34,282 bases of DNA from Nannocystis sp. (lineage in GTDB: Bacteria; Myxococcota_A; Polyangia; Nannocystales; Nannocystaceae): contig NZ_JACCSO010000528.1 in assembly GCF_013812955.1 (NCBI RefSeq), positions 1 to 34,282 of the forward strand, in the 5' to 3' direction. The notes under the pieces were generated by a model. The model was given only the letters and a program-made list of their open reading frames with translations, searched no databases and was not told the DNA's origin. Shown piece by piece: positions 11,912 through 15,075 of the stretch; position 1 is the first letter of the stretch; each line of letters starts with the position of its first letter. A program made the position numbers and the translations under genes.

Positions 11912-12134
11912 TCCGCAGGTGAGCTACGCCACGCTCGCCCGGCGCTGACAGCCCCAGGTTTAGCCCCGGTCCAAGCCCTGGATCTGCGCCCAGGAACTGG
12001 CCTTGGAGCCACACCGGGCCAGCGCCCGCAAAAAGCCTCGCACGAGGTTCATTCGGCGATGAATCGTCCGCGACTGGCGCCCGTCTGTGGCCCCCGGTTG
12101 CCGCCCTGGGTGGTGGCGGCTAAGGTGTTGCCCC

Positions 12135-12680
12135 GTGAAGCGTCGACTACTCGTCCCTCTCGCTGCGCTGCTGGTCGCCGGCGCCGCGCTCATTCCCGCC
12201 GCAGAAGCCGTGGCGGCGCCCGCCAAGGCGCTGGAAAAGCTCGGCCTGGTCGACCTCCAGCGCTGCATCCTCGAGACCGTGCAGGGCACCCGCGCGAAGA
12301 AGGATCTCGAAGCCTCCTTCGCCAAGGGTCAGGCCCAGCTCGACAAGAAGACCAAGGACCTGCAGAAGAAGGTCGAGGACCTGCGGGCCAAGGCCGCGAT
12401 GCTCTCCCAGGATGAGCTCGGCAAGCGCCAGGCGGAGCTGATGCAGAAGGACCAGGAGCTGCAGAAGCTGTACTCCGATCTCCAGGAGGAGATCGCGACC
12501 AAAGAGGCGCAGCTGACCGAGAAGATCTACAAGAACGTCGCGGCGATCATCAAGGACGTCGCGGCCGAGGAGGGCCTGCAGCTCGTGCTGGTCCGCTCGC
12601 AGGCCACCGTCCTCTACGCCAACCCCAAGCTCGACCTGACCAACCGCGTCATCGTCGCCTACGACAAGAAGTACACGTGA
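12135..12680 (+). CDS. Skp/OmpH-like periplasmic chaperone, copy 1
   Basis: Signal peptide, LGLVDLQRCILETVQGTRAKKDLE, coiled-coil core, directly after bamA; GTG start. Confidence 0.85.
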   Translation: MKRRLLVPLAALLVAGAALIPAAEAVAAPAKALEKLGLVDLQRCILETVQGTRAKKDLEASFAKGQAQLDKKTKDLQKKVEDLRAKAAMLSQDELGKRQAELMQKDQELQKLYSDLQEEIATKEAQLTEKIYKNVAAIIKDVAAEEGLQLVLVRSQATVLYANPKLDLTNRVIVAYDKKYT

Positions 12681-13237
12681 TCGCCATGCACACCGCCTTT
12701 CGCCGCCTGCTCACCGCATCCGCCCTCGCCCTAGGCGTCGCCGGCACCAGCCTGGCGCCCGTGCTGACGGCTCCGGCTCAGGCCGCCGTTCCCAAGGTCC
12801 GCGGCGTCGCCGTCGTCGACATGCAAAAGGTCCTCAACGACACCAAGCAGGGCCAGGCCGCCCGCAAGAAGCTCGAGGACAGCTCCAAGGCCAAGCAAGA
12901 GAAGCTCGACGGCAAGCGCAAGAAGCTCGAGTCCGATCAGGGCAAGCTCAAGGGTCTCAGCGGCGACAAGCTCGCCCAGGCCGAGGAAGCGCTGCAAAAG
13001 GACTACGTCGAGATGCAGCAGATCTATATGACGATGCAGCAGGAGCTGGCCGCCCAGGAGGGCCGCGTGCTCGAGGACATCTACAAGAACTGCCAGAGCG
13101 TCATCGACAAGATCGCCGCCGAGATGGAGCTCGACCTGGTGATCATCCGCGACGAGACGACGGTGCTCTACGTCGAGAGCAACCTCGACATCACCGATAC
13201 CCTCGTCAAGCGCTACAACCAGAAGTACCCGAGCTAG
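12677..13237 (+). CDS. Skp/OmpH-like periplasmic chaperone, copy 2
   Basis: Signal peptide, VAVVDMQKVLNDTKQGQAARKKLE, coiled coil; GTGA overlap with copy 1. Confidence 0.85.
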   Translation: MIAMHTAFRRLLTASALALGVAGTSLAPVLTAPAQAAVPKVRGVAVVDMQKVLNDTKQGQAARKKLEDSSKAKQEKLDGKRKKLESDQGKLKGLSGDKLAQAEEALQKDYVEMQQIYMTMQQELAAQEGRVLEDIYKNCQSVIDKIAAEMELDLVIIRDETTVLYVESNLDITDTLVKRYNQKYPS

Positions 13238-13341: not shown

Positions 13342-13803
13342 ATGCTGCTCGACGTCGTACAGATCCAGAAGATCCTCCCGCACCGGTTCCCGTTCCTCTT
13401 TCTCGACCGTGTGATCTCGGCCGTGTCCGGCGAGTCGCTTGTCGCGCAGAAGTTGGTGTCGATCAGCGACCCGATCTTGCAGGGGCACTTCCCGGGCTAT
13501 CCGATCCTCCCCGGGGTCGTGCAGGTCGAGGCGATGGCCCAGGCAGGCGTCGTGCTCGCCCATCTCTCCGGACTCTTCGATCCCGAGCTGCATCACTGCT
13601 TCTTCGTCGGCATTCAGGAGGCCAAGTTTCGGGCCCCGGTGGTCCCGGGTGAGGTCCTGACGATCGAGATCAAGGCGCTTCGCCTCGGCCGGCTGAGCAA
13701 GCTCTCCGGGGAGATCCGCGCCGGTGACCAGCTCAAGAGCTCCGCGACCTTCACCGCCGTGATCGACCTCAAGGTCAAGCCTGCTGCCGTGCCCGCCCCA
13801 TGA
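13342..13803 (+). CDS. fabZ: 3-hydroxyacyl-[ACP] dehydratase FabZ
   Basis: LPHRFPFLFLDRV; GHFPGYPILPGVVQVEAMAQAG. Confidence 0.95.
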   Translation: MLLDVVQIQKILPHRFPFLFLDRVISAVSGESLVAQKLVSISDPILQGHFPGYPILPGVVQVEAMAQAGVVLAHLSGLFDPELHHCFFVGIQEAKFRAPVVPGEVLTIEIKALRLGRLSKLSGEIRAGDQLKSSATFTAVIDLKVKPAAVPAP

Positions 13804-14453
13804 GCCTCGCTCGCCCGCACCTCGTGCTCTTGCTGGCGCTCCTGCCGGCGCTCGCGTGCGGTCGCCGTGAACTGCGCGAGCTCAGCCGCGCCAGCGATGA
13901 TGTCGCCACCGCGGTCCGGCGAGGCGACGCCCGCGCGCTGAGCCAGCACGTGGTCGTCGGGGCCCGCCACCGTGTCGACTACGCGGCCATTTTGGCGGAC
14001 AAACAGCAGCGGGCGTCCTGGGCGCGCGGCCTCGCCAGGCCGGATCAGGTCCGCCCCGGCGCGACCCTGTTCGTCGCCCCGGATCAGCCGCTGTCTGTGG
14101 TGTGGACGGGGCAAGCCTGGGTCTTCGCGGAAGATCCCACGCTGCTGTACGACCAGTCGAGCCCGCGCGCCGCCCTGCGTAGCCTGGTCCGAGCGAGTAC
14201 CCTGCAGCGCTGGGATGTCCTGCTCGCTCTGGCCCCCGAGCGCTACCGCCTCGGCCTGTCGGAGGACGACCTGCGCCGCGCCTGGACCGAGGGCGAGTAT
14301 GCCTCGGCCCTCCAGACCGCCCGCGAACGCCTCCAGAAGCACCTCGCCGAGCCGATCGTGCACGACGCTCACGAAGCCGTGCTGGACCTCGGCGATGGCG
14401 AAGCAGCGCACCTCGAGCGCGAAGGTTCACGCTGGGTCGTGGTCGACTTCTAA
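13800..14453 (+). CDS. Putative lipoprotein of unknown function
   Basis: Lipobox LPALAC after a hydrophobic signal; ATGA overlap with fabZ. Confidence 0.7.
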   Translation: MSLARPHLVLLLALLPALACGRRELRELSRASDDVATAVRRGDARALSQHVVVGARHRVDYAAILADKQQRASWARGLARPDQVRPGATLFVAPDQPLSVVWTGQAWVFAEDPTLLYDQSSPRAALRSLVRASTLQRWDVLLALAPERYRLGLSEDDLRRAWTEGEYASALQTARERLQKHLAEPIVHDAHEAVLDLGDGEAAHLEREGSRWVVVDF

Positions 14454-14577: not shown

Positions 14578-14605
14578 TTGCCATCGCTACGGTGGGCGTT
14601 AGTCT
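14578..14605 (+). promoter_or_regulatory. Candidate promoter for the 14.6-15.1 kb unit
   Basis: TTGCCA - 16 nt - TAGTCT; predicted start about 6-7 nt before the first hairpin. Confidence 0.3.
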
Positions 14606-14617
14606 GTCTAGTAAGGT

Positions 14618-14743
14618 GGCCAACCAAAATTTCACTGCCCCGCCCCGGATGACAGCAATGTCAGGGGAGAGGCTGGCCGACAACCACAGGGCCGGATACC
14701 TACCTGTAACCGGCGTGGCCGGCAAGCCCAGCTCGTGTGAGCT
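14618..14743 (+). ncRNA. Candidate structured RNA / leader with three successive hairpins
   Basis: H1: GGCCA...CCCC-GGA-TGACA-GCAA-TGTCA-GGGG...TGGCC; H2: CCAC-agg-GCCGG-a-TAC-ctacct-GTA-a-CCGGC-GTGG; H3: AGCTC-gtgt-GAGCT. Matches no RNA class I recognise. Confidence 0.4.
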
Positions 14744-14810
14744 TTACCCCTGCCGCTCTAACCTTTCCAAACCCTTAGCGCCCGACGTGGCAGAAGCGGC
14801 AGGCGAGCCG

Positions 14811-14999
14811 ATGAGACCCGCGAACCTCGACAAGCGAAAGCATGCGCCCAAGTCCTCGATCCGCGAGCGTCAGGCTCCGGCGCTCCTCGAGCTGGAACTA
14901 CCGCTGGTGGCGCCCGAGGCTAATCTACCGGTTCGTCCCGCGGCCGGGGGTGATCCACCCCTCGATCGCGGGATCGCGGTCATCGATTTTTATATTTGA
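14811..14999 (+). CDS. Candidate small protein (62 aa): MRPANLDKRKHAPKSSIRERQAPALLELELPLVAPEANLPVRPAAGGDPPLDRGIAVIDFYI
   Basis: High-GC third positions, ordinary amino-acid composition, lies between the hairpins and a terminator; a competing frame exists (14842..15057). Confidence 0.35.
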   Translation: MRPANLDKRKHAPKSSIRERQAPALLELELPLVAPEANLPVRPAAGGDPPLDRGIAVIDFYI

Positions 15000-15038
15000 G
15001 GGCAAGCGGCCCCGGAGGCCCAGGCTCGAAATCTCAGA

Positions 15039-15075
15039 CGAGGGCGTCCTGCGCTAAGGGCGCCCTCGTTTTTTT
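15039..15075 (+). terminator. Strong Rho-independent terminator
   Basis: CGAGGGCGTCCT-GCGCTA-AGGGCGCCCTCG followed by TTTTTTT; 12-bp stem including one G-U. Confidence 0.9.

Follow-up and report, generated by a model that had tools for sequence, protein, structure and literature searches.

In E. coli, 5'-uAUG mRNAs function both as leaderless and as SD-led messages, and translating the upstream frame can influence the gene that follows (Beck, Fleming and Janssen 2016, PMC4965119). In Mycobacterium tuberculosis, Ribo-seq has revealed leaderless short ORFs, many of them without the codon signature of purifying selection, as well as alternative starts that yield isoforms; these ORFs indicate that a leaderless frame need not carry such a signature (PMC9094748). 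For myxobacteria, our literature search on leaderless mRNAs and on small proteins found nothing direct. The Nannocystis locus analysed here resembles the E. coli 5'-uAUG mRNAs, the closest described case, in having a start codon at the predicted 5' end of the message, a putative 5'-terminal upstream ORF and then a candidate SD-led gene. It differs from them in that the upstream ORF mostly continues in frame into the gene, has been kept family-wide and contains a conserved hairpin, and in that its translation is a prediction. With the M. tuberculosis ORFs it shares a predicted short leaderless ORF and a predicted alternative isoform start, but its frame is conserved over deep divergence, which is unexpected from random pervasive translation. 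Finally, it has a covarying hairpin near the transcript 5' end, as do structured leaders and riboswitches of the Rfam type; unlike these, it matches no family, and the region lies within a conserved open frame.

The locus occupies positions 14578-15075 (+ strand) of the window, the stretch of 34,282 nucleotides of Nannocystis sp. DNA that was analysed, between a lipoprotein gene downstream of fabZ and a gene for an FHA/sigma-54 regulator. The original prediction held that this gap is not empty, and all the elements that it listed were present when the sequence was checked directly. The promoter, the first hairpin, the ORF and the position of the terminator recur in relatives and, as judged by this comparison, the locus is a real one-gene transcription unit that runs from its own promoter to its own terminator and encodes a small protein. 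The promoter (14578-14605, +) consists of TTGCCA (14578-14583), a 16-nt spacer and TAGTCT (14600-14605). A site of the form TTGCnn-N16-TA[GC]nCT precedes the gene in different Nannocystaceae genera, in most loci and once per locus; spacers of 15-19 nt were permitted in the search, and the spacer is 16 in every match. A consensus scanner gives the window promoter no score, and its support is comparative. The distance from promoter to conserved core is 251-366 nt in Nannocystaceae loci; in other Myxococcota families the region 5' of the gene is shorter, and a TTGACC-type promoter-like site often lies within about 100 nt. At the other end, an intrinsic terminator with a T run is predicted at 15036-15071 (+); it recurs in position and has a stem of 15 bp instead of the 12 bp first described. 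Locus L003 has a terminator hairpin and T run of different sequence at the homologous place, where none was found in L022.

The 62-codon ORF (14811-14999, +), which starts at an internal ATG, was proposed as a small gene, and the homologue search and selection check bear this out. It has same-start homologues in Nannocystis, one in each of seven genomes, namely the assembly of the window and six placed in the same genus, whose loci match named Nannocystis contigs, and always flanked by the lipoprotein gene that follows fabZ and by the FHA/sigma-54 regulator. Among Nannocystis species the frame is conserved and under purifying selection (pooled pS 0.167, pN 0.037, pN/pS about 0.22), changes falling mainly at third positions. 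Homologues, mostly syntenic, are present in 27 of 29 Nannocystaceae genomes, including all 19 with a completeness of 90% or more and a contamination of 5% or less. When the Nannocystis form is used as a profile, it picks up proteins adjoining the same lipoprotein in other families (of the type MLDPWIIEEIRRREEEERxxREQPVLEIPLExP...ERGVVIVDFSV), and the protein search also recovers relatives in Enhygromyxa salina, Plesiocystis pacifica and Polyangia MAGs. These proteins are members of a small-protein family with MLDPWIIEEIRRREEEER...LELPLP...RGVVIIDL as its typical form. The family profile matches 222 of the 379 Myxococcota genomes, almost always with a single copy, and profile-profile comparison connects the phylum form with that of Nannocystis (hhalign E 3.4e-9). 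Alignments place the conserved C-terminal core of the window protein, LELELPL...DRGIAVIDFYI, at 14886-14996 (+), and the Nannocystis protein has the C-terminal LELPLP...RGVxIxD motif of the family. The N-terminal stretch ML[DP]P[WF]IIEEIRRREEE of the phylum is absent as such in Nannocystis, where it is degenerate (MRPANLDKRK), and traces of it, among them HWIIKN and NWITERP, survive in other Nannocystaceae. By its C-terminal motif and its synteny, the window protein is filed as a diverged member of the Myxococcota family.

The locus brings to light a small-protein family, almost always single-copy, across most of Myxococcota and missing from Pfam, NCBIfam and PHROGs, in which the 62-aa protein itself has no match. 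AlphaFold gives it no fold (pTM 0.14), and a PDB sequence search with a phylum-type member returned marginal matches only (E 0.013 and 0.71). The idea that an operon partner might reveal its function was dropped: the neighbours of the small gene differ between classes, and genomic context therefore yields no function. The lipoprotein-like gene that adjoins it in the window (13800-14453), which has no significant Pfam match, stays beside it in several Polyangia families, with a common C-terminal half of about 120 residues. Directly 5' of fabZ, at 12087-13237, lie two adjoining OmpH/Skp-like genes, one recognized by Pfam and the other by its similarity to the first in relatives; the pair is also found in Nannocystis and other relatives.

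The original prediction overlooked that GTG 14616, only 10 nt past the -10 hexamer, opens a frame that spans the hairpin region and continues in frame into the 62-aa ORF. The resulting 127-codon ORF (14616-14999, +), of which the 62-aa ORF is the C-terminal half, would have a leaderless or near-leaderless start, as suggested by the position of its start codon and by its stop-free frame. The frame that leads into the core is devoid of stops in 14 of 17 lineages (shuffles give 1.8 +/- 1.3, with a maximum of 8 among 2000), and an ATG or GTG lies 6-14 nt past the -10 box in 14 of 16 (background 0.25 per such stretch, P about 2e-7), counts that come, like that for SD-like sites below, from mutually related lineages, so that the shuffle statistics are not exact probabilities. 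For the hairpin analysis, start codons 28-29 nt past the -10 box were used in L019 and L025; in L023 no start codon is clear. The two remaining leader frames are stop-free in four and two lineages, respectively, and stops summed over lineages number 4 in the core frame versus 21 and 35 in the others. In the three exceptional lineages, the ORF opened at the 5' end terminates short of the core ORF start, by 7, 34 and 7 nt. Other families served as a control: there the in-frame opening 5' of the gene is usually short, with 3 of 34 loci reaching 190 nt or more. Within Nannocystis, a 1-nt deletion breaks the leader frame of L007; since fabZ is also split in the same assembly (L007/L042, Nannocystis pusilla Na p29), into two overlapping matches in different frames, this deletion is likely an assembly error.

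These observations bear on the proposal that the 5' region is a non-coding structured UTR, possibly a riboswitch or a protein-binding leader that controls the 62-aa ORF, its open frame being a coincidence. The covarying hairpin described below would fit such a leader, as would the SD-like sites that precede the ATG in most lineages and a pattern of substitutions and GC content that is flat over codon positions. A coincidence accounts poorly for a stop-free core frame in so many lineages and for a start codon where the transcript should begin; two of the three hairpins are not conserved, and the Rfam scan that had been suggested returned no family at the gathering threshold. Below that threshold, the best matches (E 0.3-4) all lie in the terminator region and are at chance level, and no known Rfam riboswitch or sRNA is recognized; a tRNA/tmRNA scan was also negative, in line with the original prediction, which claimed no tmRNA motif. 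We regard the non-coding leader as unlikely. Of the layout first proposed, the promoter, the structured 5' part, the small gene and the terminator hold, while a riboswitch-type or purely non-coding leader, or an ncRNA of about 460 nt, is unsupported, because in most lineages the leader forms one open frame with the small ORF and has a GTG or ATG at its expected 5' end. For the same reasons the "untranslated leader" is probably translated.

An ordinary protein domain under purifying selection in the leader was a possibility that we rejected. Within Nannocystis the extension has a pooled pS of 0.117 and a pN of 0.077 (pN/pS about 0.66), between genera the differences are about equal over the three codon positions, and GC content by codon position is 0.65/0.58/0.66 in the extension versus 0.76/0.50/0.78 in the core. 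The leader frame is thus maintained and its peptide sequence is not. By eye, a short motif resembling GCSGARAAYTC can be seen in the leaders of L018, L021, L087, L092, L025, L050, L093 and L095, in some lineages in differing reading frames.

The original prediction placed three hairpins in the leader and suggested a covariation check, which upheld the first and left the two others without comparative support. Hairpin 1 (14635-14676, +) has 15 bp, the GCAA loop and the 3-nt bulge previously noted, the latter being GGA, and its inner stem, UGACA-GCAA-UGUCA, lies at 14650-14663. RNAalifold run on seven Nannocystis leaders recovered this hairpin and extended it to 15 bp, with pairing in 99.0% of cells and five compensatory double changes versus 0.9 +/- 0.8 after shuffling and 0 or 1 after sliding, which amounts effectively to one comparison, since the contrast is mostly between the window and six close relatives. 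In other genera, a UGACA-N4-UGUC stem lies at +34/35, counted from the start codon. Stems of 5 bp closing a 4-nt loop occupy this position in 9 of 20 leaders (at most 4 among 500 dinucleotide-shuffled sets) and in 4 of 11 genus-level representatives, a count reached in 2 of 500 shuffled sets. Local folding is at its minimum right after the start codon and at its maximum at +25 to +59; folded as a whole, the 201-nt leader is not unusually stable (z -0.69). Hairpin 2 (GCCGG/CCGGC, 14691-14714, +) loses its pairs in relatives, in which the homologous place holds a different hairpin, and hairpin 3 (AGCTC-GTGT-GAGCT, 14730-14743, +) is partly kept in sequence while its stem is lost.

Because the sequence of the stem is mostly UGACA/UGUC, a live rival for the hairpin, and for the hairpin only, is that GACA-N4-TGTC acts as a DNA operator within the early transcribed region, a dimeric site for a regulator. 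The palindrome is indeed mostly kept as sequence (TGACA/TGTC) around a variable centre, and in L027 and L028 the predicted fold favours another pairing. An operator would not explain why Nannocystis keeps the stem with different bases (UGGUG/CAUCA) within a 15-bp covarying bulged hairpin, nor why the spacing to the start codon is tighter than the spacing to the promoter, and a genome pattern search shows no clear regulon. The GACA-N4-TGTC regulon was rejected, the excess over the 5-nt spacing fitting codon phase. An operator is thus conceivable but rather improbable, and it would be compatible with the use of two starts.

The internal ATG likewise seems to be a genuine start. It lines up with ML[DP]P[WF]II, the start found phylum-wide, and in 9 of 15 lineages, again related ones, an SD-like site precedes it (background 0.10, P about 2e-6). 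In Nannocystis, the window included, this site is weak, and scoring found none in the window itself or in L003. This start is pertinent to a second alternative, in which the locus is a simple leaderless gene of 127 codons, the internal ATG is unused and the rapidly evolving N-terminal part forms a disordered extension. Conservation of the frame and of the 5' start codon agrees with such a gene, and the core ORF has no ATG at the expected start in L018, L021, L091 and L095, the first two of which count in its favour. Nevertheless, it leaves unexplained the coincidence of the ATG with the phylum-wide start and its SD-like sites, the separation of the two ORFs in three lineages and the near absence of amino-acid conservation in the extension, and we consider it very doubtful.

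We favour, with reasonable though far from complete confidence, a dual-start small-protein gene in which a single mRNA has a leaderless and an internal start together with a conserved RNA hairpin. The promoter, the core gene, the hairpin, the maintenance of the frame and the start codon near the expected 5' end are established by comparison. The Nannocystaceae mRNA would begin at the GTG or ATG or a few nucleotides before it, as the position of the promoter suggests. Ribosomes would read it either from GTG 14616 in a leaderless manner, to give 127 amino acids, or from ATG 14811, the ancestral internal start, which lies in the same frame, to give 62 amino acids. The hairpin and leaderless initiation may then tune the amount of core protein or the isoform made. 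The location of the hairpin about 34 nt inside the leaderless frame, together with upkeep of the frame without upkeep of the amino acids, suggests that the additional peptide is less important than having ribosomes pass along the leader.

A more specific model, which we put forward tentatively and think rather unlikely as it stands, is a family-wide isoform or expression switch, in which leaderless 5' initiation would compete with the internal SD start and be modulated by the hairpin at +34. If this model were true, the state of the ribosome would set the amount or the form of a core protein that is found phylum-wide, and the extension would persist merely as a translatable frame, nearly free in sequence. 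The locus provides a natural case in which the frame but not the amino acids is conserved, beside a covarying RNA hairpin, and in which a role for leaderless initiation and dual starts becomes testable by comparison as well as by experiment.
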